64,000 nt of DNA from Siphonodentalium dalli (Eukaryota; Mollusca; Scaphopoda; Gadilida; Siphonodentaliidae): contig CP136066.1 in the NCBI GenBank assembly GCA_032622095.1, positions 113,605,319 through 113,669,318 of the forward strand, read 5' to 3'. The translations under genes and the position numbers were made by a program. This document shows positions 498-52,969 of this stretch, one piece after another; the first letter of the stretch is position 1; every line of letters begins with the position of its first letter. Below the pieces are notes generated by a model, which had not been told where the DNA came from, did no database searches, and saw only the letters and a program-made list of their open reading frames with translations.

Positions 498-3400
498 ATG
501 ATATTTTTAGGGAGGGCCCTATGATAGTTCAGTGTTCAGGCTTTCTTTAAGGAAATATATATTATATTTTTAAAAATATCATATTTCCGCTAAAGGAAGC
601 CGTTCACACTGAACTATATGGATTAGAATGCAAGCCCAGGAGGAGGCATGAGCAATAAAGTTAATAGCCAAATTTGGAGGGAATGCACTCTTCTAAATAT
701 GAACTCTTTAATGAATCTGTTATGATTAGGTACGTGAAATAACTCATATAATTAGAGTGCTATATTGCCCAAACATGTACCTCCCCCCCCTTGTTTTTGG
801 AAGCAACATCCCAGGTGGTGCCATTCAATTCAGAATTGCGAGCGAACCGAGCAATTCTCTGTTCTTCATCCGTCAGTTCTAAGAATCCAGCCGATTTGAG
901 ATTCGAGGAGACTAACTCCCTCTCCGCCTTAGCGGCATAACGACCTGCACTGGAGGAGGCCCACTCCAAGGATGGCAAGACAACCAACATTAAGAGTTTA
1001 ACTAACTGCTGTTCACCAATGCAAATGGCAGACAACCTGATGCCCAATCTATGGCACAGGTATCAAATGGAGAGCCCATGAGCCCAAATGGGTTATACAA
1101 CTATAAGCGAGTCAAGCCATCGGATCAGAGGGAGCCCCCACCATCGCATGCTGCAGGTGGTCATGCCCAAGCTAATATCCTGGCCAAGCTGGAGGGTGGG
1201 GAGAGGTCACTTTTCTCCGATCCCTTCACGGAGGAGTGGCAGGCAAGGCTGTGTCGTCATTTTTCGTTTATGCGAGCGTGACCAGGGGGACTCGGCGCTT
1301 TACCTCATGGGTACGGCCCCTGCCCTACGCTTAAGCTGCCGAAGGCCATCCAGCCGGTGTCGATACGTACGCACGCGATTTTGGCAGCTTTAGCGCCCAG
1401 AACCGCTAGCGTCTGGTGGGGGCCAAATGGCCTGGAGGTCCCAAGTACCCCGGCAGCTCCACCAGACGTATCCCCACGAATTGGTTGAACCGTCGAGACG
1501 TAACCGGAGGAGCGTGAACTGGTCCTGCCCTTAGAAACAGTTATCACACATTCACATGTCCCTGAGGTACCTATGTATCACAATATACACATTGCGTATA
1601 TATATATATAAAATGATATAATATATATATCCGGGGGATATATATATTAAGTTTTCCTCATGAGACCATGTCAGAAGGCCCTTCCAAAGCTGCGCCCATC
1701 AATCTAATGGGCGGAGCCAGATCACAGCACCCTGTCATGATCCAACGTATCACTAAATATAGATATACAACCCCACAGAGAACATGTCTCATGTCTCTGA
1801 GGTACCTATGTATCACAAGATAGCATTGCAGAAACCCGGTGACACAAATCTTTCGCATATATAGATATATAAAATGATATCATAGATATATCATGGTGAT
1901 ATATAAGTCATCATGAGATCATGTCAGAAGATCCTACTAAAGCTGCGCCCAACAATCCAATGGTCGGAGCCAGAGCAGAGATCCCTGGCACAATCCAATG
2001 TATCATTAAAGATATATATATAGCCCCTCAGAGAACATGGCCGAACACCGCAGGTGACCAGAGCATCCAATGAGAAAGCAAACCGCTACTCTCAGGTGCC
2101 AAAACAATGTCGGTACGAGTATTAATTTTGGAGAAATTTCCCAACGAGCACCATCCTTTGGAATGGAGACAGACAGCAAAATGTGCAATCACAAGTATTA
2201 TGTTCAGCCTAAATCCACACACACTACTATTATTAGGCCATCACGACCACTAGGCACCTGAGAGCAGTCCGCGTTCCCAACGGAATACCCACCGCGATCC
2301 GATTCTGAGAAATGAAGGTGCGCCTTCTACAACCGAAATCAGTTCAAATGATGTACAATGTAGTCAGATGATGAACACAGGTAAATATTCACGGTCACCA
2401 TACGGAATATTCAGGTCTGAGCCTCTGCCTCCCCAAACATGCAGTAGAACGACCTAGGTGTGTGATAGGTCGGTTAGTGTGAAGCATGCAGCAAACTAGG
2501 GGAAGACCCGCTCTAAAAATGGCTCCCCTAGGAAGGAAACGAATGAAATATCATCCTCCTAGTAAAGGATACACATCCCTTTTTAATGTTTTATTTTAAT
2601 TTGAAGAGCCAAGATAGAGAGGAACTCCCCCGACCTAAGTGGTCCCGCTTATGGCATGTTTAAGGAAGAGAGGACAAACCCAGCATAGACCGAAATGCGC
2701 AGTTGGCAGAATGGCTTCAGGCCCTTATGATCGGGCATCTGTGCCATGGGGATGGGATGCCACTCGTACGGGTGGTCCCCTGCCTGCGTCTTAGGAAAGG
2801 ACGGTAATGCTGGTCAATGAGCTTCCTCGAAAGCTTAGCTGGACAGCGCAAACGTCTTTGCCTGTTTTATTGTCTATGTGCCAGATAATCAAATTGATAT
2901 GGGCAATAGAAGTATGAAGAGCCATGCTGATGGCCTCTTGTCGGAAAGGCTATTGGCAGTGGTCGTGGGACACGTGGCAATAGAAATGCTTTCCATGTAA
3001 ATATGCTTCATTCGTGTGTGTGAAGTATATTCGCCATATCAACGGTATGAAAGGTCGGGACACGTATATATTTTAAAATTCATTGAGACTCCAGCTAGTC
3101 CATGAATACCTTCAAAACACCTACCATGCCCTTTATGAACAATGCATGCTGTATTGGATGTACAGCCTGTTCTTGTACCAAGCTCACATTTGATATGGTT
3201 ACTTGCCATAAATAATGTCTCCCCCCCCCCACCTTCCTCGTCTTGGAATACCACTGCTATTATATCGTTATTCATTGGGGAACGTCATCCAGGCCACGGT
3301 CGCCAGTTATTGCCAGTGGGCCAGTTACCTGGAGGGGTCAAGTCACCACGACTCTAAATACCTGTCAGGCTGGAATCATTCACATAATTGAATCAAGAAG

Positions 3401-5032
3401 GGGAAAGGTTGTTCAAACCAAAGTATCTTCAAATATATTTGTAGATAGTGAAACCATGATTAAACACCGTCAGAGTGACGATAAGCTTCTTGCCTTACTC
3501 TAGAGAATGCAAACCGGAGCACCCATGATTTGTAATTTTTGTGTCCCAATTAGAGCCATATCCAGAATCGTAGTAATCCAGACCCCCCCCCCCCCCCCCC
3601 GCTTCTTTTCGGTAAACCTACACAGGAAGGAAAGCAATTATGTTTGTATTCCGGAAGGAGACACCATTTAGTCGAGATACAACCCAGCAATTTTGAAAGG
3701 ATGGGTTAATTTTTGGATACAATTCAGAATAACTAAAATCTGGAATTGAGACAATAGTGAAACTGTCATCATTCAAGCGTCGACCAACACATCTAAATCA
3801 TAAGAGACATGTGTGACAGTATTAAAACAGAAAACACAAAGTATTTTGTGAAAGCATGTTGTTTAGATGAGATCTAGCGACTCCAGTAGTGTTCTGTAAC
3901 ATGCACACACCTAGGTGTGTACATGTGTCAGCCATTAAGTTTTTATTGTCCACACCCGATCGCACAGCGTAGTGCACCCACGACAACATACCTGAACAAG
4001 TGTTGTAATGGGGAAAGTCGGCATTTGCATTCGGATTTTATTCAGTAATCTCGAATGGGACTTGTTAGCCTGACAAACTTGGTATCGGACCGAGTTCTGA
4101 TTTCTGTCAGAATACCCTGACCAGGGTGCGATCCCCGGTCCGCTAGCACATGGCTGAGATTGTTACATTGAAGGTGATGCTCCGTTACGAGAATCAAACC
4201 ATGAACATAATTATAACACTTGTCCAATATCAATCTCTGTCAATTTATTAAAGTAATAATGACACTACTGTTTTTACATTGAATTGATAAACCCAGATGT
4301 AAATTGTAATCAACTTTTAAGTTAAAATGTGACCAACACATCTGGATCAGTTGTATTGAACCATAAAACAACAAAGTATTATGAGATAGAATGTAGTTCA
4401 TAACATTATGATAGATAGCGTCAGTAGCGATGGTAATTATTGCTAAATAAATGTCCACGCGTAAATAAATTCCCACGAAATTAGGAGACTTCGGTAGCGA
4501 AACACGTGGCATTTTTTATATCTGACAAATTATATCATACCTTATAGGTTCTATAATAATTACATAGATGAATTGTTCACAATAGTAAGGCCTTGAAATG
4601 GCGGCTGATTATGGCGAAATGTCGATTTTCAGATTCGAAAAATATTAAGTCCGCCGCCTATTCGAAAACACGGAACAATTGTATGTTTGAAGCGAAACGG
4701 TCCGTGAATTCGAAACAATAATTCTAAAAACTAACGCGTAGGCGACCAGTAATTATTGTATCGATAAATTGAATTTGTTGTCTAGTTATTAAACGACAAA
4801 TTCGGAACAATACTCCCTTTAGACTTCTCTCTTTGGTAGCAGAAAATAAACTGGCGAATTCATTCGGTTATATTGGGACTGCGCATGCGTGACTAATCCG
4901 AGCAGGCCACTGGAGACCGCGAGGTATCGTAGGCGACCACAAAAAAGTTAACCCCTTTTCTACTATGGTTTTACAAACGCAGGACATCTATCCATATAGT
5001 TCAGTGTGAACGGCTTCCTTTAGCGGAAATAT
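498..5032. mobile_element. Composite TIR element A (unclassified)
   Basis: The core runs 581-5032 and is bounded by inverted repeats at 581-623 and 4990-5032 that are identical over 43 bp by eye. They begin atatttccgctaaaggaag and contain CACACTGAACTATATGG. Left of the core, 498-580 is the remnant of the left cassette seen intact in elements B and C. The surrounding dispersed repeat is broken at the outer edges, which supports an insertion. The interior holds a C-run near 781-790, a GC-rich patch at about 1045-1540 and an imperfect internal duplication at about 1553-2045. No intact long ORF is present. It aligns collinearly with B for most of its length. Confidence 0.7.
1051..1281 (+). pseudogene. 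GC-rich coding-like relic in composite A
   Basis: A 76-codon plus-strand frame includes QREPPPSHAAGGHAQANIL and AKLEGGERSLFSDP. The paralogous patch in element B (about 36535-36745) keeps most of this reading, but has a stop where A has CGA. Differences fall at first and second codon positions and at CpG sites. This suggests a dead copy of a former protein and not a living gene. I do not recognise the family. Confidence 0.3.
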
Positions 5033-20275: not shown

Positions 20276-23200
20276 TAGAGATGGGCGGTACTCGGTAATT
20301 ACCGTGCGGTATCTGTATCAGCGTAATACCGATTTACCGTACCGAATCAAAACTAAAAATACCGAATTTTTGGTACTGAAATTATTCATGTGTTGCCACC
20401 CTGTGTGTCTTCGTAGTGAGTAAAGTTTCTCAGTAAACACTCCTTAATTGTGTAGGATATATTTTTAGCATGCTATGTCGGTACCTTTCTATTAATGGGT
20501 CACCATCGGCACCATGCAACATGATCATGATGCCAATATCCCGCATGCAATGCAGTCACAACAAGTTTCCAAGCTGCAAAACAAAGTTCAGTCCCCTCGC
20601 AACGCGAAGCTGCAAAACAGAGTTCTGTCCCCTCGCTGATCTATGTCTGAACGCAGCCGGCATGAGCATTTTCTTAATTAAATCTAATATTTTTTTATTT
20701 AAGTGTTTTGTCAGTTACAATTCATTCTGGCTTGATCGAGACAGTTTTCAAATGAATATGGACAGTTCATTTATACAGTGAATCAAAATCTTACTTTCAC
20801 TTTCTAAAAAAAGAACAGATCCATCAATTGATTAAATTCTAAGAATTCGATCTTTACAATGTGTTTTGCTCAAATTCTCAATGCTGTATTTGCACAGCGG
20901 ATTTATTTCGGTGTTGCGACTATTTGGGATTTCTGAATTGTGATCACTGATTACTACTCACAATTCTATTCACTCACGAAAATGTGACGAAATTGACACA
21001 TATAGATAATGATGCAATCTTATTCTTTTCAAACGGAACTAAAAACCAATAAGAAGTCGTATCAGATAAATGATCTAAAAATAACATTTTCAATAGAAAA
21101 TACATATTCCCTATAAGATACTTACACACTGAACTACATGGTATATTCATCTTTATTCACAAGAAAGGATTCTATGAGATCCGTTTAAAATTTATTATTT
21201 TGGTACGAAATAGCTTAAGTACCTTTTTGAATCTGACATTATTTATATGATGTAGCAGGTCAAGGTCATTTGTTCACTTGTTATGTATATAAGCAAGTGT
21301 GGACCCAGTCAAGATCTCTTTTTCATCCTCTTACAAGACTCGAGGGGTGTGACCGAGCAGCGGGGAGGGAAAATCCCAATTTGGGAGCGACCTGTGAGTT
21401 CAGTGTGTAAGTATCTTATAGGGAATATGTATTTTCTATTGAAAATGTTATATTCCCTTCAAAGATACGTTACACACTGAACTACATGGTAGAATCAACT
21501 CATAGGAGGAGGCTGCGAGGAATGAGAAACTATTGTATTGTAGTGAAGAGTAATTAATTTGAACTTGCTGAGTAGCAACAAATGGATCCAAAAGGTACCG
21601 ATTTGCAAATTTTATTGATGGTACAAGGTAGAGTGGAGAAAGTGGAAGAATGAGCCCATTGGCTGAATCTCTGCACCTCCCCCCCCCCCCCCCTTTTGGT
21701 TCTGAAGTCAGACAAACCTGTAATTGTGAAATCTCCCCAAGGTCATATGCAGGTACATGCATGTGCCACCTCCTCCCTGGAGTAAGCTGGTCATATGCAG
21801 AAAGCATAGACCACCCTGCTCCATGGCATGTGACTGAACGAACCAAGATATCCCAACGTTTCGACACCAGAGGAAGGAAATCTATTGTTACCGGAATGGT
21901 CAATATGGATGCAAAACGAGGAAGTGGCAACTGTAAATACGATTAGAAACATACCACCAAGTCATGTATGGTGAAGAAAACCCAGAATTAAATAGCCACC
22001 GCATCAAGATTGTAAGGTTTGCGACCTACTGGCAGTAACGGTGTCTAACTCGACCAACTGATAAAGGCGCAAAAGAAGTATTTTCGGACTGACCATCAAA
22101 ATGACAGTATGTTACTTCAGTGAATTAATACACCGGACAGAGGCCATATTCCGTCCGACAATGCCCATGATTGGTAGTTACTTTAAGGCTGGAAACTGGT
22201 AACAAAAACCCCAGGTAACGAAGTCCATGAAGAGCGTTATAGGACTTGGAAATTCCCAAAATGTTTTCTGGTATCGAAACAATCGAGAAGAAAAAGTTCG
22301 GAGAGTCCAGAGTTGTAACTACCTCCACAGCCTGTCAATCCAATAGTGTATGCAGTTACACGTACACGTGATTCAAAGGAATACTTTGCAGTCTGCATGT
22401 AACATGTTAGAAAATGTGTAGAAGGAGGAGACCCATCGTGTTGGAACTACTTCAAACAGTCTGAAAGAAGGAACAGGCCATGGATGATTAAGGTCCCAAA
22501 AACAACCAGACTGTGGATAACAAGAAGATTGTGTCTGCTTGTTAATCACTGATTGTTCTTAACAGCCGAAGGACCCGGGTCCATGAGCAGTTATTGGTTT
22601 TTAGCCCACCGCAACGACCAAGGAGAAAGCATATACTCGGTCGACATGAGGTCGAGGAGGTATGCCAGAGGTGTGAACAGAAGGCAAAATTTACCGAAGA
22701 CCAGTCACATGTGTGTATGGTCGGACGGTTGTCTGTCGCTCATACAGCGAGGACCCGGACCCTAGGTCCTCCCCGCGGGCAGAGACTCTCTGTCGCCAAC
22801 AATGATTGTCTCATGTGCGCCGTTAGACGAATTGCCCGTCTGTTTGAGTAATGCAAGACAGCATGTCAAAAAAGGAGCACTGAGTACAATAAAGCCCGAT
22901 TCCAGAGGTGCCACGACTATTTATATTGATAATCGACAATCGGTCGGCCACAACAGACGATAATCGATTAATCGTACCTAACACCAGCAGTGGAAGTATT
23001 CTGTAATATGGCCTATTGGCTTGGTGCTGGGTAACTACAATTTGCTGTTGTTTGAGGAATCGGCTCAGGACATGTTTACATTAATGAAGTGCATCACAAA
23101 CCACTTTTATTGACCAATGAACAGAATGTATTCTATACCTGCACAATTATCGGCCATGTTATGGTGATAATAGAATTTGTGAGGTCATTAGAACGAACGT

Positions 23201-26200
23201 AAATATGAATTTCAGTGTCTGAATAGCCAAACATGCAAACCATATAAAGTAGGAATGCATAATGAATGGCCGACGGTTTGTATTTGATAATATCGAGGTT
23301 CATTCAGCATTCACTGCATGATACGCAATAGCCTATACAATTAACCTCTAAGGATACTTATTCAAGCACAGTATACTCAAATGACATCATGGAGAACATT
23401 GCTGATTAAAATGCCATAGGTTCCCTAGTTTCCAGAGAATTTCAATCAACTCCCATTGGTTCAATCAGATTCAAGGGCAAGTGCATTCAGCTCATTGAAG
23501 ACAGTGACAGTCGGCATATATCAAAGATGTAGTTCCGCCTTACAAGTAGAAATATACAATGACATCGCCATAATTTCAAAGCGGCAGGGCCGCCAATTTG
23601 TAGAATTAACAACAACATGAAGAGTAACCATGGCGCATCATCAAATGAACTGCAGACTGTTTGCAACATAGGTTAGTAGTACCCCTGTTGACGGAATCGC
23701 GTTGATATGCAATCACAGGTTGTTAACCCATCGGTTGTAGATTAAACTGTGTAAAACAAACACGGTATTCAATAATACTGGACATGTCCCGATGTCAAAT
23801 TACATAATGCATATTAATCGACGATGTAAATGGTAATCGATGATCGGCTTTATCAACGGTTCATCGATTATACGACTAATCGCGGCACCCCTACAAAGGA
23901 CTCCATCAAGCAGGGCATCAACGTGTGTTGTTGGCATGATGCAAGGCTCAAAGTTCTGAAATGCACCTGTTCACATGGAACAGGTTATTACCCACCGTAC
24001 CGCCACCCTAGAAGATTGCGTGAGTTCAATTGTCTATATCGTAACCTGATAAGCTAACCCAAACTGTAAAGCCATGATATTGAGCGAGAATAGATCTAAT
24101 CCTGGTACTACAGGTAAAAAAACCCATTGGGATTGTCCTAAGACTGTAGAGTCAAAAGCTGATGAATGTTCTACGCACAGAGAAACGGGAGTCACAACTT
24201 GGTTCGCAGAAAAAACAGCCTATAACTGCAGAAAGCCAGATTGACACTCGCAAGGAATCCAAGGCTTGGTGTTTCGCCCCATGGAACCGTAGTAAGGGCG
24301 AAAGATGATCGGTGTAAATTTATCACCAGAAAAATCGAACGGTCACCCATAAACAAAGGACAACGCTAATCAGTGACAAGTGGAAAGGTAATAAGTTTGA
24401 GCCCTGGTAAAACCTCATGGTTGTAGAACAAATCGAGTGTGTGTTAAAAGTCTCTGCCCCGGCCGATGACTGTGCTATGTACACTGTTATGGACAGCACC
24501 CGAGATTATCCGGCATCAGCCGGCGCGCTGTCTGGTGGCCCAATGCTCGGTCTCCCCTCGAACCTCCCAGGACCCAAATCGGAGGCGAGAAACTGCGTCT
24601 GCCACACCTCGATGCCTTGCAATTAACTCTAGCTCTTTTTTAGAGCCACAAGAAAAAACAGCAAGATCTCTCCGAAAACCAAAGTGAGAATCAGGATTCA
24701 CATTGGATGGCAAGTAGCCCTGATAATTAGAATTGTAATCTAAATGTGGGATCGGCAGATCCAAACCATGGATTTTGTTATCTTTAAAGTTAAAAAACTG
24801 AATAAACAGGGCTGCGTAAAGCCTGGGAAGAGACATCGAGGTATGATTAATGTTCAGACTGTTTCCCCCCCTAACTGGAGCCAGCTTAAACCTTGACGTG
24901 AAGCTGAATCATACTGTGCAGCCAGTAGGGCGGTGGCAACATACTTGGTCACAACACAAATCCAGATACCGCACCAACATGATGACACCACACTTAATGT
25001 TTCTAAAGGAACACAATCCGCATTGAACTACATGTTGAATGGGCAGATCAGTCAAATCTACATAGAATGAATTGCCACAGCCCCAGTGGTTACACTGGCT
25101 ACAACTCACCTCCCGTCAAAGAGCAAGCATTTTACGGCCATGCAGAGTCCCGGGAAATGGTCTTAACAGCAATTCCACCCGAGGGTAGACGCCAGGGAGC
25201 AACTTACTTTGGAAATTTGATTATCCAATAAAGAGCCTCACATTGACATGATGAAAGTATTTTGTTCTCATATCTCAAAGTCACATAAAATTCATACTAA
25301 AATGCATGGCTATTATCCAAGTTTGGATGGCAAATTGTGACCTGATGCGATACCAGTTAAGTTGCTCCCTAGGGGGCTGACAGATCTTTGTACGTCCCAC
25401 CTGCTTGTGAAAGGGAGATGGGAGGACGAAAATCTGAGGTAGGATCCAGCAGCAGCGGGCGAGCATGGTCGGATCCGTGCATAGTGGAACCCACCCTCGG
25501 AACAGTATGGCGCCTTGCCACAGTGACATTGGTGAAGTATGCGGCGGGGCCCCTCAAGGTCTGCATGGAACGAGGAATTTGATTAGCCTGAACCTGCTTG
25601 ACAATGGGGTGACTGAAACCGAGGCCATACGAGGAAGAAAATTGCTTGTTTTATGACCAGTTATAAGGATCAGGAAAGTGACCTAAAAATATTCCAGGAA
25701 ATTAGGTGACTGATGTGTCACATTATTACGTGTGAAATTGTGTCAGTCACTCAGAGATCTGACAAAAAAGTTATTTTGTTGGCAAACAATCTCAATGTGT
25801 ATTGTATTGTAAACGAATTCATAGTGAACTATGAGCCAAGAAAAACCACACAAGTGAGTTAATTCCTAGATAAACGAAAAAAGGACCCAAACCTGATCCC
25901 TATTTTGCTACATATGTCAACATGAAACAGATGTGTGAGTGACAATTTCAGAATTTCGACGTAAACAAAACGTGGCAATTTTCTATAACCGCAATGTTGT
26001 CTCACTGGTTGAATGATCTTTTAATACTTACATTCTAAAACCACAAGAACAGAGATAACATAGCAACTGTGCTGTATAGGCATTCCCAAAGAGAGTTCAA
26101 CACGTGAACGGCTGCATATATACAGACGAATTCAATTTCGAATTCAATTCGGAATACTAAAACACGTGCTCCAAAACCGGAAGTTGGGGAATTACCCACA

Positions 26201-26957
26201 ATTTTCAACATAATAAACTAGTTTTAATTTTATTTTTTGCGTAAAATAAAACAAGTGAAATTGAATGAAATTGTCACTCTGATATTATTTAATAATTATT
26301 GTGTCATTTCCCAAAAATGAAACGATGTCACAACAAATTAAACAAATTGGAACGGAATTGTTAAATGAAGCCGACAATAATATGTGGGTTTCAATTTTCT
26401 CATAGCGTGTACTTCCCTTCGAGTCACAAGAAAAAAAGCGATCTTGACTGGGTCCACACTTGCTTATATACATAACAAGTGAACAAATGACCTTGACCTG
26501 CTACGTCATATAAATAATGTCAGATTCAAAAAGGTACTTAAGCTATTTCGTACCAAAATAATAAATTTTAAACGGATCTCATAGAATCCTTTCTTGTGAA
26601 TAAAGATGAATATACCATGTAGTTCAGTGTGTAACGTATCTTTGAAGGGAATATAACTATTGTGACGTTTCTGATTACGATTGGTCCAAATTTAACAACG
26701 AATGAAATTTACTATATTTCTTCGGACGGGGAATTCCTAGTCTTCCCCACGTGCCAAGGAAAATTAACCATTTAAAAAACGTGTTTTCCAAAATGTTTCA
26801 TTGTTCAGGTAAAAACTTGAATTACCGCAATTTACCGGGAATCTCTGTTCTGGTCCTATAAAATTTAATAGCAATACCGATTACCATACAGTTACCGAGG
26901 TAAATAAATAAAAATTTACCGATACCGAGATTGAAATTTCAATACCGGCCATCTCTA
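20276..26957. mobile_element. hAT-type element, 6.7 kb including nested insert
   Basis: It begins TAGAGATGGGCGGTA and ends TACCGGCCATCTCTA, imperfect terminal inverted repeats. It is flanked by a perfect 8-bp target duplication CCACCATT (20268-20275 and 26958-26965), the hAT hallmark. Subterminal taccg motifs recur near both ends. About 1.1 kb is the element itself; the rest is composite C nested inside. No transposase was recognised. Confidence 0.88.
21081..26657. mobile_element. Composite TIR element C (unclassified), nested in hAT
   Basis: The core is 21447-26657, with inverted repeats identical over 45 bp by eye (21447-21491 and 26613-26657). They begin gttatattcccttcaaagat and contain CACACTGAACTACATGG. 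Left of it sits a cassette at 21081-21451 with a different inverted pair (about 55 bp, starting ataacattttcaatagaaaa). The cassette interior, 21136-21325, is an inverted near-identical copy of the core's right end (about 26437-26612). The core interior has a C-run at about 21679. A degraded internal echo of the end motif lies near 25010-25045 (attgaactacatg). No known protein domain was recognised. Confidence 0.75.
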
Positions 26958-35687: not shown

Positions 35688-36534
35688 CCCAAAAATATTA
35701 TTTTTAAATGGATAATACATTTTTCCTTAAAGAAAGCCTGAACACTGAACTATATGGATATATGTCCTCTTTGTAAACCACAGTAGGAAAGGGGTTAACT
35801 TTTTTGGTCGCCTCCCGACGCTTAATGTGCTTGCCCAGATTAGTCACGCATGAACGGTCCCAATATAACCAGCTGTACTCGATGGGATTCGTCAGTGTTA
35901 TTTTCGACTCAATCAGGAGATTGGCAAGTTGCGGGGTTGGGAATGGCGCCGCCATGGGAGGGATCTATGATAGTTCAGTGTTCAGGCTTTCTTTAATGAA
36001 AAATGTATTATACTTTTAAAAATAATATTTTTCCGCTAAAGGAAGCTTTTCACACTGAACTATATGGATTAGAATGCAAGCCCAGGAGGCACGAGCAATA
36101 AAGTTAATATTCAAATTTAGAGGGGAATGTACTCTTCTGAAACAGATTGCACATAAATATGAACTCTTAATGAATCTGCTATGATTTGTTACGTGAAAAT
36201 AACTCACATATTCAGAGTTCTACATTGCTCAAACGTGTACCTCCCCCCACCCTTGTTTTGGAAAAAAACATCCCAGGTGGTGCCAACCAATTCATAGTTT
36301 CGAGCAAACTGAGCAAGTATAACCGAAGAAGATGCACTTCTTTCTTCTCTTCGTCTTTCAGTTCTAAGGTCCCAGCCGCCATGGGATGCAAGGAGACTAA
36401 CTCACTCTCCGCCTTAGCGACAGAACGACCTGTACTGGAGGAGGCCCACTCCTAAGATGGCGAGACAACCAACAGTAAGAGTTACCGAACTGCTGTTCGC
36501 CAAAGCAAATGGTAGCTAACCTGATGCCAAATTT

Positions 36535-36745
36535 GTGGCGCAGGGATCAAATTGAGAACCCAATAGCCCAAATGGGTTGGACAACTATAAGTGAGTCAAG
36601 CCATCGGATCAGAGGGAGCCCCCACCACCGCATGTTGCAGGTGGTCGTGCCCAAGCTAATATCCTGGCCAAGCTGGAGGGTGGGGAGAGGTCATTGTTCT
36701 CCGACCCCAAGACGGTTGAGTGGCAGGCAAGGCCTTGTCTGAAAT
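36535..36745 (+). pseudogene. GC-rich coding-like relic in composite B
   Basis: This is the paralogue of 1051-1281. In the frame homologous to A it reads QREPPPPHVAGGRAQANIL and AKLEGGERSLFSDP, but a TGA replaces CGA upstream of QREP. An alternative frame is open for 78 codons at 36509-36742. It is a decayed copy of an unrecognised gene. Confidence 0.3.
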
Positions 36746-37132
36746 AAGAGTGTGGACAGGGGATCCCGGCTCGTTACTGCTATGGGTATGGCCCCCGCCC
36801 TGCACTTAAGCTGCCGAAGGCCCTTCGGCTGGTGTCAATTTGTGCGCACGTGATTTGGCAGCTTCAGCGCCCAGAACCGCTGGTGCCGGTGGGGGACAAA
36901 ACGTCCTGGAGGTCCCAAGTACCCCGACAGCTCCACCAGTCGCATCCCCACTAATTGATTGAACCGCCGAGGCGTAACCGGAGGAGCGTGAACTGGTCCT
37001 ATCTTCCTTCTTAGAACAGTTATCACATGTCTCTGAGGTATGTATCACAAGATATCATGCAGAAACCCTGTGATACAGATATATAAAATGATATGATAGA
37101 TATATCAGGGTGATATATAATTCATCATGAGA

Positions 37133-38004
37133 CAGGGACCAGCCGAGAGGGCGAAGTGGGCGAAGAAGTCTCCCTATTCTTGCTCACTTCGCCCTAATTT
37201 TGCGGCCGGGCGAAGTTTAAGTCGCCCTGAAATTTCCGAAGTTTACCTAAGAAAAAGGGCAAATTATTCACCCACTATTTACTGCCAACATTGATTGAAC
37301 CCAGTTATCCACTGACACTGTCGTAGATAACACCATAGTTACTATTAACAGCTGTATTAATCCGATTTGGGAGCACATTCACACCTGAGTGTTGATTGCA
37401 GACAGCTGTGAATACATCGTAAGGTGTCCAGTGACTTGTGAATTTGGGATTATCACACCTGAAGATTACACCTTACATCAGATCATCACCCTTTGTTAAA
37501 TTATGTAAAGGCCAGATTAGTTTTGAAAACAAATTCATTTTTGCAACATAGTAATATCTGTACCCATGTTAGGGACTTTTAATGAGTGAAAATGTTCAAG
37601 ATTTCTACCGTTTTATAGCATTTTTTTCGTATTCATAATCATTGTCTAATTTTTATTTCTTTTTGTATTCATAAGCGGTCGTAATTCTTATTTCTTTTTG
37701 TGTTCATAAGCGGTTGAAAAAATGGCGTTCTTTCAAAACCATTCTCTCATATTTGGACATTATTCATAGTTATTAGTGTAATGATTTGAACATAAAGCTT
37801 CCACATTTGAACCATTGTTTCACCATTTTAATTTAAATATTGCATATCTCCTATTTTCTTTATATAGCCTTTTATAGGCGACTACAATGCGGGCGGATTT
37901 CAATTTTGCCAACGCATTTCGCCCTGGAAACTTCCCACTTCGCCCTATTTTTGTGACAGGGAGAAGTCACTTCGCCCTGAAAATCAGGCCTAGGCTGGTC
38001 CCTG
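37133..38004. mobile_element. hAT-type MITE with cttcgccct subterminal repeats
   Basis: The ends CAGGGACCAGCC and GGCTGGTCCCTG are a perfect 12-bp inverted pair. They are flanked by a perfect 8-bp duplication TCATGAGA (37125-37132 and 38005-38012). Near both ends the motif gggcgaagt/acttcgccct is repeated several times in inverted orientation, like hAT subterminal transposase-binding sites. There is no coding capacity. It is absent from the aligned site in element A, which reads straight through tcatgagatcatgtcag. Confidence 0.93.
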
Positions 38005-38752
38005 TCATGAGATCATGTCAGAAGGCCGCACCAAAGCCTCGTCCATCAATCCAATGGTCGAAGCCAGAGCACAGATCCCTGGCATGATCCAATGTATCAC
38101 TAAATATATATATATAACCCCACGGAGAGCATGACTAACAGCCATAAGCCCATGGAGCTCATGACTGAAGACCATAGGTGACCATAGCAGCCACTGAGAA
38201 AGTAAACTACTCGTCCACGTTCCCAGTGGAATACCAACCGCGAGCTGATGTCAAGAAACGAAGGCGCACAGATCAGATCTATTGAATGTACGTAATTAAA
38301 CGACCGTAGTTAAATATTCAGACAGTTGACAACTGAAATCATTACGAATGATGTACAATGTAGTCAGATGATAAACGCTGTGGGTAAATTGCCACGGTCA
38401 CCATACGTAAGACACAGGCCTCGGCACAGAACATCATGTCACTTTCTCCAAACATGCAGCAGAACGACCTAGGTGTGTTATAGGTAGGTTAGTATGATGC
38501 ATTCAGCAATCTAGGGGAAGACCCGCTCTGAATATGGCTCCTCAAGGAAGGAAACAAATTGATATTTTCATACGAAGTTCAGTAAAGGACACACATCCCA
38601 AATGGTGCAACGTATTGAATGTAATATCCAGGTTGTTGTAAAGGAAAGAGGAACTTCCCCCTACCTAAGTGGTCCTGTTTAAGGAAAAGAGGACAAATAC
38701 AGCATAAACCGAAGCATCCAGAGTTGGTAGCATTGCAGATCCCTGTAATCGG

Positions 38753-40785
38753 GCATCTGGTGCCATGGGGTCTGGATCCACTCACACTGGGTGGTCCTCT
38801 GCCTGCGGGGAAATGTCTGTAAGGCTGGTCAATGAGCTCGAAAGCTAAGCTGGACAGCGCAAACGTCCCGCCTTTTTTATTTTTTATGTGCCAGATAATC
38901 AAATTGATATGGGCAATAGAAGTATGAAGAGCCATGTGATGGACTCTTTTCGGAAAGGCTATTGGCAGTGGTCGTGGGGCACGTGACAATATAAATGCTT
39001 TCCATGTAAATGTGCTTAATCCGTGTATGAAGTCTATTCGCCATATCAACGGTACGAAAGGTATTAATAGAATGCGAAGAGCCAAGGTCTAGACTAGTTT
39101 GTATTTGAAATTCAAGTAGACTCCTGCTAGTCAATGAATACGTTCAAAACTCCTACCATGCCCTTTATGAACAATGCACGCTCCATTGTATGCACAGCAT
39201 GTTCGTGTACCAAGCTCACATTTGATATGGTTACTTGCCATAAATAATGTCTCCCCCCTCCTTCTTGGAATACCACTGCTGTTATTTCTCATTAGGGGGC
39301 CTTCATCCAGGCATCTCAAATTTGGCCACGGTATCAAGTAATGCTGCAAGATATGTCGCGGCCACATGGGGAATCGAACATTCCACAGCAGCATATTTAT
39401 TTACTATGGGCCAGTTAACTGGAGAGGTCAAGTCACCACGATTCTAAATCTTGTCAGTCTGAGATCATGAATAAGTCTATTCAATGAGAGACAATGAGTG
39501 GACCGGTATGCAAATAAACCAAGGACGGCTTGAAAGCGAAATAGAATCATAAGGAAAGTTATTCGCAACAAGTCATTGTGATATATTTCCATCGCAAAGT
39601 ACACTTTCACATTTCCATAATTGAACCAAGATGGGGAAAGGATCAAAAGAACCTTCAAATATTTATGCAGATAGTGAATCCATGATTCAGAAGGTCGACA
39701 AGAGGGAAGAGTGCAAACCTGAGTGCCCATGATTTGTAATTTGTGTCCCAATCATATCCATAGCTAGAATCGTAGTAACCTGACACCCTCTGTCTTCTTT
39801 AAACCTGTACAGGAAGGATGGCAGTTATGTTGATATTCCCGAAGGAGATACCATTTAGTCAATAAACCAACCCAACAATTTGAAATGATGGGTATATATC
39901 GGTATCGGTAGATATATGAGTGGAGGAACCAATCCGGTTATAGACTCACTGCACCAGATGAGACCACGGCCAAGTAACTTGATAACCCTGTGGTGACTCC
40001 AATAGCCGAGGCATGGACACAGGTCAGCCAGGAAGGTGCACGCCCTATCGGAGAGTGTCTGCACCCGCGACAACATACCTGTACAGGTCATAACGAACAT
40101 AGTCGTTACTCTCAGGTGCCAAATAATAATGTCAGCATGAGTTAATTTTGGAGAAAATTCACAATAATAACTATAATTTGGAATTGAGACGGAGTGAAAT
40201 GGTCATCACTATTAATTGCAGCCTGAATCCCCACAGATCACTATTATTAGGCCATCACGATTATCGTGCACCTGAGAGCAATACAAGCCCACTGGTTCAG
40301 ACCGGCTTGCTATTGTTCATTAGAGCATAAACAACTAGATGGATATTAAATCGACCTACATGGCTGAGATTAAGCATTAGCTATGATGTCCGGGGTACAA
40401 TGGCATGTCATGTTTGCAATCATCAAATGATAGCATTTATAAATTCTCCAGTGAAGTTGATGCTCTGTACGAGAATCGAACCATGAACCATAATTCTGAC
40501 ACTTGTCAGATATTAATCCCTGTCGTAAAGTAATAATGTCATTACCGACTATTAGCACTACTACTGTCATATTAAGTAACAAATTAACAATTATTATTAG
40601 ACATGAAACAGTCCCAGTCTGATATTGATAAACTGTAGTCAACTTCAAGCGTCGACTAACACAGCTGGATCATGGATACATGTGTGACAGTATTGAAACA
40701 GAAAACACAAAGTATTATGTGAAAGCATGTTGTTCATAACATTATGATAGTGTCAGTAGCGAGGGAATTATTTAAAGAAAATTCC
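38753..40785. repeat. 2033-bp tandem duplication, unit 1
   Basis: The unit starts gcatctggtgccatgggg and ends gaaaattcc. It is followed directly by unit 2, with every position shifted by exactly 2033; I saw no difference between the units. It is part of the composite B interior. Confidence 0.95.
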
Positions 40786-42818
40786 GCATCTGGTGCCATG
40801 GGGTCTGGATCCACTCACACTGGGTGGTCCTCTGCCTGCGGGGAAATGTCTGTAAGGCTGGTCAATGAGCTCGAAAGCTAAGCTGGACAGCGCAAACGTC
40901 CCGCCTTTTTTATTTTTTATGTGCCAGATAATCAAATTGATATGGGCAATAGAAGTATGAAGAGCCATGTGATGGACTCTTTTCGGAAAGGCTATTGGCA
41001 GTGGTCGTGGGGCACGTGACAATATAAATGCTTTCCATGTAAATGTGCTTAATCCGTGTATGAAGTCTATTCGCCATATCAACGGTACGAAAGGTATTAA
41101 TAGAATGCGAAGAGCCAAGGTCTAGACTAGTTTGTATTTGAAATTCAAGTAGACTCCTGCTAGTCAATGAATACGTTCAAAACTCCTACCATGCCCTTTA
41201 TGAACAATGCACGCTCCATTGTATGCACAGCATGTTCGTGTACCAAGCTCACATTTGATATGGTTACTTGCCATAAATAATGTCTCCCCCCTCCTTCTTG
41301 GAATACCACTGCTGTTATTTCTCATTAGGGGGCCTTCATCCAGGCATCTCAAATTTGGCCACGGTATCAAGTAATGCTGCAAGATATGTCGCGGCCACAT
41401 GGGGAATCGAACATTCCACAGCAGCATATTTATTTACTATGGGCCAGTTAACTGGAGAGGTCAAGTCACCACGATTCTAAATCTTGTCAGTCTGAGATCA
41501 TGAATAAGTCTATTCAATGAGAGACAATGAGTGGACCGGTATGCAAATAAACCAAGGACGGCTTGAAAGCGAAATAGAATCATAAGGAAAGTTATTCGCA
41601 ACAAGTCATTGTGATATATTTCCATCGCAAAGTACACTTTCACATTTCCATAATTGAACCAAGATGGGGAAAGGATCAAAAGAACCTTCAAATATTTATG
41701 CAGATAGTGAATCCATGATTCAGAAGGTCGACAAGAGGGAAGAGTGCAAACCTGAGTGCCCATGATTTGTAATTTGTGTCCCAATCATATCCATAGCTAG
41801 AATCGTAGTAACCTGACACCCTCTGTCTTCTTTAAACCTGTACAGGAAGGATGGCAGTTATGTTGATATTCCCGAAGGAGATACCATTTAGTCAATAAAC
41901 CAACCCAACAATTTGAAATGATGGGTATATATCGGTATCGGTAGATATATGAGTGGAGGAACCAATCCGGTTATAGACTCACTGCACCAGATGAGACCAC
42001 GGCCAAGTAACTTGATAACCCTGTGGTGACTCCAATAGCCGAGGCATGGACACAGGTCAGCCAGGAAGGTGCACGCCCTATCGGAGAGTGTCTGCACCCG
42101 CGACAACATACCTGTACAGGTCATAACGAACATAGTCGTTACTCTCAGGTGCCAAATAATAATGTCAGCATGAGTTAATTTTGGAGAAAATTCACAATAA
42201 TAACTATAATTTGGAATTGAGACGGAGTGAAATGGTCATCACTATTAATTGCAGCCTGAATCCCCACAGATCACTATTATTAGGCCATCACGATTATCGT
42301 GCACCTGAGAGCAATACAAGCCCACTGGTTCAGACCGGCTTGCTATTGTTCATTAGAGCATAAACAACTAGATGGATATTAAATCGACCTACATGGCTGA
42401 GATTAAGCATTAGCTATGATGTCCGGGGTACAATGGCATGTCATGTTTGCAATCATCAAATGATAGCATTTATAAATTCTCCAGTGAAGTTGATGCTCTG
42501 TACGAGAATCGAACCATGAACCATAATTCTGACACTTGTCAGATATTAATCCCTGTCGTAAAGTAATAATGTCATTACCGACTATTAGCACTACTACTGT
42601 CATATTAAGTAACAAATTAACAATTATTATTAGACATGAAACAGTCCCAGTCTGATATTGATAAACTGTAGTCAACTTCAAGCGTCGACTAACACAGCTG
42701 GATCATGGATACATGTGTGACAGTATTGAAACAGAAAACACAAAGTATTATGTGAAAGCATGTTGTTCATAACATTATGATAGTGTCAGTAGCGAGGGAA
42801 TTATTTAAAGAAAATTCC
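40786..42818. repeat. 2033-bp tandem duplication, unit 2
   Basis: This is the second, apparently identical unit. After it the sequence continues gcgagttgaaac, so the junctions share only the two bases gc. Either the duplication is very recent or it is an assembly artefact. Confidence 0.95.
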
Positions 42819-43424
42819 GCGAGTTGAAACACCACGAGTACAATAACATTCGCACGAAATTAGGAGACTTTGGGTAGCGAACCACGTGGCATTTACGGTC
42901 TGACCAATTATATCATACCTTGTAGACTTTATAATAATTCCATAGATGTATTTCTCCCAATAATTTATGTGCGTCGTAAGTCATTGAAACGATGGCCATT
43001 CTATGGTGAATTGGTCTAATTCAAAGACGCAAATAATATATTGGCTTTTACGAAAACACGGAACAATTGTATGTTTGAAGCGAAACGGTCCATGAATTCT
43101 AAACCGATAATTATAAAAAACGAACGAGGAGGTAACCAGAAAGATATATTGTATCGATAAATTGAATTTGTTGAGTTGGGTGAAACTCGAAATTCAGAAA
43201 GATACTCCCTTAGACATCTTATTGGTTACGCAGTAGGAATAAAACTGACGAATCCCATCGTGTACAGCTGGTTATATTGGGACCGTTCATGCGTGACTAA
43301 TCTGGGCAAGCACATTAAGCATCGGGAGGCAACCAAAAAAGTTAACCCCTTTCCTACTGTGGTTTACAAAGCAGGACATATATCCATATAGTTCAGTGTG
43401 AAAGGCTTCCTTTAGCGGAAAAAA

Positions 43425-51563: not shown

Positions 51564-51772
51564 CTAAAAATAGAAGCAAAAACAAAAGGTTTTATTATAA
51601 TACATCATTGTGACCATCATACATCACTCTTTCTGATAATTATATCATTACATGCTGATATGAAGGATAATGTTGATTACATTTTATGATAAATCCCATC
51701 ACTGTATCTGGGCATAAAGTCTGCTATAAAAGACTAATGGGAATGGTCTTTGGCGTAAAGTAGCACCTCACT

Positions 51773-52373
51773 GGTTTATGTCAAAGGATACTTATCTCAC
51801 TGGTTTATGTCAAAGGATACTTATCTCACTGGTCTATGTCAAAGGATACTTATCTCACTGGTCTATGTCAAAGGATACTTATCTCACTGGTTTATGTCAA
51901 AGGAAACTTATCTCACTGGTTTATGTCAAAGGATACTTATCTCACTGGTTTATGTCAAAGGATACTTATCTCACTGGTTTATGTCAAAGGATACTTATCT
52001 CACTGGTTTAGGTCAAATGATACTTATCTCACTGGTCTATGTCAAAGGATACTTATCTCACTGGTTTATGTCAAAGGATACTTATCTCACTGGTTTATGT
52101 CAAAGGAAACTTATCTCACTGGTTTATGTCAAAGGATACTTATCTCACTGGTTTATGTCAAAGGATACTTATCTCACTGGTTTATGTCAAAGGATACTTA
52201 TCTCACTGGTTTATGTCAAAGGAAACTTATCTCACTGGTTTATGTCAAAGGATACTTATCTCACTGGTTTATGTCAAAGGATACTTATCTCACTGGTCTA
52301 TGTCAAAGGATACTTATCTCACTGGTCTATGTCAAAGGATACTTATCACACTGGTTTATGTCAAAGGATACTT
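51773..52373. repeat. 29-bp minisatellite, about 21 units, intronic
   Basis: The unit is ggtttatgtcaaaggatact followed by tatctcact, with ggtctatg and ggaaac variants. Since 29 is not a multiple of three and the unit has no stop, all three plus frames stay open and give the same 29-residue periodic peptide. These frames are not genes. It lies in the intron between exons 1 and 2. Confidence 0.96.
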
Positions 52374-52969
52374 GGGCTATATCATAATATGGTTATGTGG
52401 CAAAATCAAAATTATATCAATGGAAAACATGAAAGGCATGAAACAGAACCATTTACAGTAAATGTGCATAAATAAGTGAATCATTCCATAATCTGGACTG
52501 GTCATGCATTGCCGATGAAGTGGTTGTGACAGATGTACTGTTTATTTTTACAATATCAGGATTAATAATCAATGCACTCTATCTCTATTGTTTCATGGTG
52601 GATATGAAATACATTATACAATTTTTTATAATGGACAATGCTTCAGAATAAGGATATGTTTCAATACATAGTTTGCCACCACCACGATTATTCCTTATGA
52701 TATCCAGGAATTGAAATGAAGTTATGATTCCAGGATAACTTTGCCAGGATTATATACATGTAGGCAATCTAGAGTTCACTCAAGAAGTATTCATACTTTG
52801 GTGATTGTATAAATACGCTTTGATGTTCGTCAAAGCAATGTATCAGCTGAGATGACATCTATTATTTAAATTGGCTTTGCTGACCTGTCAAAACATTCCT
52901 TGATGTTCATTATAAAGGGTTTGGGTTCCAATCAGAACTACTCACTTATTGCTTCCTATGAGCGGGGTG

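Follow-up and report, generated by a model that had tools for sequence, protein, structure and literature searches.

A gene-less repeat family in Siphonodentalium dalli that is very probably a large non-autonomous DIRS1-like retrotransposon

Layout of element C and its relatives

We analyzed a stretch of 64,000 nucleotides of Siphonodentalium dalli DNA (the window; C6:113605319-113669318) together with the genome in which it lies (2.23 Gb searched, in 9 contigs). The window holds three elements, A, B and C, with the following features, given in window coordinates.

21082 to 26653, minus strand: whole element C, 5572 bp, bounded by 36 distinct left and about 30 right flanks of genomic copies
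21082 to 21104, minus strand: right extension (rE), 23 bp, found only at the right terminus and in the rICR, delimited by comparison with the left terminus
21105 to 21323, minus strand: rITR, divergent for about 20 bp, then conserved for about 200 bp (202-nt inverted pair I1, 99%)
21324 to 21396, minus strand: spacer between rITR and rICR, no Rfam match and no unusual fold
21397 to 21450, minus strand: rICR, 54 bp, matching the right terminus exactly in reverse complement
21451 to 21491, minus strand: lICR, 41 bp, matching the left terminus exactly in reverse complement
21492 to 26432, no strand assigned: gene-less core, in which the longest ORF, running from the ICR side, reaches 164 aa and no Pfam domain is found
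21679 to 21697, minus strand: sense-strand purine run AAAAG(15), named "C-run" in the initial annotation
26433 to 26653, minus strand: lITR of the sense strand, at the right end as seen in the window
499 to 5031, minus strand: element A, of a related family, with its ICR at about 524-623 and a deletion of most of the outer rITR
35698 to 43424, minus strand: element B, of the A family, with the complete ITR/ICR plan and its ICR at about 35970-36069

We infer that the sense strand of C is the minus strand, from the location of the ICR near its 3' end; the orientation is taken from the ICR because no genes are present. Read on this strand, C begins with the left terminus TATTCCCTTCAAAGATACG... 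and a lITR of ~220 bp, which are followed by a core of 4.9 kb, the lICR, the rICR, a spacer of ~73 bp, the rITR, and finally the 23-bp right extension, ending in ...GAAAATGTTA (lITR - core - lICR - rICR - rITR - right extension). In reverse complement, the ICR (21397-21491) exactly matches the two outer ends of C when these are joined. Together, lICR and rICR spell this circle junction as GAAGGGAATA|TAACATTTTC, in which the right and left termini, joined in this order, are read as their reverse complement.

The initial annotation had described this arrangement as a left cassette with ~55-bp inverted arms, filled with an inverted copy of the right end, and followed by a core with perfect 45-bp inverted repeats. 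We found the arms (21078-21135 and 21397-21454, 58 nt, 98%), and an inverted copy of the right end that is longer than had been claimed (21122-21323 and 26433-26634, 202 nt, 99%). The core repeat is also present (21447-21500 and 26604-26657, 54 nt, 94%), but about 4 of its 45 bases are a chance match, since the right flank begins with TAAC here and the family boundary lies at 26653. All of these repeats far exceed what chance would give. On this evidence, the cassette is best read as the rE, rITR, spacer and rICR taken together, not as an added piece, and the core inverted repeat as the lICR paired against the left terminus.

The cassette-plus-core plan had been attributed to all three elements; B and C carry it in full, but A retains only a remnant of the cassette, consisting of ~11 bp of the outer end, a fragment of the spacer, and the ICR. 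A, B and C share a 17-bp motif and the ICR plan and are inserted after AATA. They also have in common the C-run (a G-run on the sense strand), which lies 160-190 nt inside the motif in each. The run near the left end is real and recurs in most of 57 ICR-side sites, including A and B (fetched loci, some of them redundant), at a median of 189 bases inside the motif. C aligns to A and B only around the ICR, at ~72%. The proposal that two diverged families (A/B and C) share one functional design is borne out; the observation stands, but what went unrecognized is that the shared design is the known ITR/ICR arrangement of DIRS1-like elements (PMC3266345).

Some further features of the window are noted here. 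Element B contains a perfect 2035-bp tandem duplication (window 38753-42820), which is either very recent or an effect of assembly. Across the genome, we counted 873 occurrences of the A-type end pattern, most of them in +/- pairs separated by 4-5 kb. Within the core of C, positions 22902-23896 have hAT-like ends (CAGAGGTGCC...GGCACCCCTA) and may be an old insertion carried along. At 51759-52475, there is a tandem repeat with two open frames (VYVKGYLSHWFMSKDTYLTGLCQRIL...), which is probably a minisatellite.

Boundaries, insertion sites and copy number

Genomic copies of C have left flanks of the form RAWA|TAACATTTTC and right flanks of the form GAAGGGAATA|N, and the common start and end of the sampled readable copies therefore define element C as 21082-26653. 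By a hand count from the listed flanks, RAWA (background ~3% in the window) ends 35 of the 36 distinct left flanks (GAAA 20, AAAA 10, GATA 4, AATA 1), and the remaining one ends in AACA, giving a preferred insertion site of RAWA|T. A is never the base that follows the right end; T, C and G all occur there. We found no target duplication in 14 copies with both flanks, except for one 2-bp match of a kind that chance can give. Moreover, for three insertions, the joined flanks align to related unoccupied sequence without a gap at the joint (C5_165 with L019; C9_75 with L029, L057 and the window; C6_44.6 with L003 and L040), in a comparison that used insertions whose flanks are diverged repeats. 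Left out of this evidence were C7_116, whose joined flanks align only with nearby gaps, and C1_130, which matches repeats including the element's own core.

We considered an ordinary DDE transposon with terminal inverted repeats, struck at its left end by a smaller related inverted-repeat element, the cassette, which is itself bounded by 55-bp inverted arms as such an element would be. The constant-length target duplication of DDE elements is absent from C, and no duplication surrounds either the cassette or the element. Furthermore, the outer boundary of the cassette is the same in all sampled readable copies (36 distinct left flanks), and the cassette joins the core at the same base in every sampled copy with a readable left side. 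Nor would a strike on the left end account for a cassette-core joint that spells the joined outer ends. The refuting outcome named in the initial annotation, a cassette that is a separate insertion, is thus ruled out by the lack of a duplication around it and its fixed position in every readable copy, and we regard the DDE explanation as a whole as almost certainly wrong.

The family is abundant. We counted 273 C-type ICR joints in the genome (at most 2 mismatches; control 0), and first-look searches gave rough counts of 802 candidates for the left end of the core, 807 for the right end, and 855 for the 371-bp cassette, a repeat that is joined to the core and conserved at 97-99% identity. Copies of C range from ~4.4 to 10.5 kb. 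The 17-bp motif, which had been expected to exceed chance, occurs 9 times in the window at up to 3 mismatches (0.39 expected) and in 2478 exact copies in the genome (reversed control 0); it marks a group of elements inside this genome.

Gene content and the search for a helper

The window copy of C has no ORF longer than 164 aa and no Pfam domain when read in six frames with stops as X, and in ten further copies, read over stretches of 5.1-10 kb, the ORFs do not exceed 162 aa. Thus, the family is non-autonomous, and the autonomous copy with a long ORF that the initial annotation had proposed to look for did not emerge from these eleven. Most of each of the ten further copies aligns to C at ~95-98.6%. 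This common gene-less core indicates that the gene-less form itself multiplied, and argues against simple gene decay copy by copy. If the copies were instead decayed or internally deleted remains of an autonomous DIRS1-like element, differences in length such as those between ~4.4 and 10.5 kb would be expected, but so would coding traces, and the copies share one core free of them at ~95-98.6% identity; we consider such an origin very unlikely. The gag, RT/RNase H/methyltransferase and tyrosine-recombinase genes of DIRS1-like elements are all missing from C, and we have therefore filed it as a non-autonomous derivative rather than a complete DIRS1-like element. The cores of A and B likewise yielded no Pfam domain above the cut-off, and no hidden genes came to light in the A, B or C cores in a six-frame reading with stops as X. 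The core and spacer of C showed no sign of structured RNA, with no Rfam match and folds no better than those of shuffled sequences.

Two candidate sources of coding capacity were set aside. The subfamily of C with G-type ICRs was considered as the autonomous form, and two partial loci of it proved to be the same gene-less family at 80-90% identity. A 153-aa frame in one of these loci (L080:3390-3848) belongs to a separate repeated protein, with frames at other sites that reach 1104 aa, no Pfam match, and four identical copies genome-wide; this protein family is probably another mobile element. L016:2013-3203 resembles the same frame.

Many open tyrosine-recombinase frames are present in the genome, and two of them each lie 2.8 kb downstream of a gag-like frame; such gag/recombinase pairs are located, for example, at C3:117.90 Mb and C7:177.05 Mb. 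The gag-like frames in the genome are presumably of the kind known from DIRS elements, a lead only, on which Pfam is silent. Among the best-scored matches, none of the 191 C-type ICRs listed had a recombinase or gag inside the element, no RT, RNase H or recombinase was linked to C ends, and the search turned up no autonomous partner that shares these ends. Recombinase and gag neighbors at C9:92.92 Mb and C6:91.09 Mb were rejected as partners because they lie in flanking DNA and their number is about that expected by chance. A tyrosine-recombinase match also falls in a 583-aa open frame at C6:113599520-113599723, 5.6 kb before the window.

Comparison with DIRS1-like elements and a proposed mechanism

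DIRS1-like elements have the arrangement lITR-lICR-rICR-rITR-rE, and in AcDIRS1, the divergent part of the ITR is 26 bp, the conserved part 140, the rE 26, and the ICR 40-58 (PMC3266345). The corresponding sizes in C (extension 23, ICR 41 + 54, divergent ITR ~20, conserved ITR ~200) are within or close to the published DIRS1-like range. Like DIRS-1 and the mollusc elements LgDIRS1-3 and AcaDIRS1-2 (PMC3266345), C has ITRs with divergent outermost parts and a right extension. It also resembles DIRS1-like elements in having adjoining lICR and rICR, complementary to both termini, which lie near the 3' end and spell the joined termini, as well as in its lack of target duplication and its short AT-rich insertion core. 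In contrast, C is without the gag, RT/RNase H/methyltransferase and recombinase genes, and its terminal trinucleotides and insertion core are TAT / TTT, compared to the commonest published NTT. Thus, we conclude that element C is very probably a large non-autonomous DIRS1-like retrotransposon, with ITRs of ~220 bp, a one-sided 23-bp extension, and an ICR near the sense 3' end.

Other tyrosine-recombinase elements deserve mention, since duplication-free insertion at a short preferred site and the abundance of recombinase genes in the genome would equally suit a Crypton or a retrotransposon of the Ngaro/PAT type. Ngaro and PAT elements are tyrosine-recombinase retrotransposons without target duplication and carry split direct repeats (A1-B1-A2-B2), whereas the repeats of C are inverted, its ICR is an inverted joint, and the long direct repeat near its ends is part of the ITR/ICR system. 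To our knowledge, Cryptons have not been described with an ITR and ICR, both of which C possesses. We therefore rate an origin from either group as extremely improbable. A different likeness is to LARDs (large retrotransposon derivatives), which have LTRs and depend on the integrase of an LTR element. C shares with them a gene-less core of several kilobases between intact retroelement ends and, presumably, movement in trans, but has no LTRs; its ends are of the ITR/ICR type and its presumed enzyme is a tyrosine recombinase, compared to LTRs and an integrase.

The new finding is a DIRS1-like derivative that is large, uniform and gene-less and exists in hundreds of copies; we found no description of large gene-less DIRS derivatives in the literature searched (Repbase and most subscription papers lay outside it). 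If C follows the DIRS model (PMC3266345), an enzyme supplied in trans would reverse-transcribe the element RNA, the ICR would act as template or splint to join both ends into a circle, and a tyrosine recombinase, again in trans, would integrate the circle at a short AT-rich core; in the model, the 3-bp circle junction recombines with the target and no duplication results. In the predicted circle, the left and right ITRs would meet at GAAGGGAATATAACATTTTC, and flanking ITR sequence would distinguish the circle from the genomic ICR. A known copying mechanism would in this way explain the odd layout of cassette plus core, and the C family looks like a minimal cis-acting substrate of DIRS elements. 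We also entertain a bolder proposal, which we hold to be rather doubtful: that a DIRS-type parasite needs only ITRs, ICR and purine tract in cis (A/B and C are gene-less and amplified to hundreds), and that second-strand synthesis in DIRS replication is primed by the A(n)G(5-19)AGGTRCA run that both families carry on the sense strand, upstream of the ICR. We know of no established primer for this step.

Hundreds of near-identical gene-less copies with matched ICR and terminus variants make the circle-joining model testable by comparison alone. One subfamily has TATTCCCGTC where C shows TATTCCCTTC (G form and T form, respectively). The G-form left terminus was found for 24 of 47 elements with a G-type lICR (those among the matches listed), compared to 0 of 28 with a T-type lICR (Fisher 1e-6), where termini were scored 3.6-9.0 kb away in the right orientation; the distance from ICR to terminus in G-form elements is mostly ~4.4 kb. 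This match speaks for copying of the ICR into the terminus but is no proof of it, because subfamily descent alone would give the same match. The right terminus and rICR showed no excess match within copies (permutation p 0.5), a comparison of little weight, since copies hardly vary there and a few rows are spurious.

Tandem arrangements were seen at several loci outside the window. At C1:64259924-64287936, six minus-strand copies of the 17-bp motif follow one another at intervals of 5577-5613 bp, suggesting that C-length units are arrayed in tandem. At C6:91.084-91.086 Mb (L005, L006), the left end is tandemly duplicated with a spacing of 961 bp. At C9:65.18-65.19 Mb (L059), two C elements lie head to tail with only the 23-bp extension at their joint, an arrangement that either recombination or template switching at the shared TATTCCC could explain.
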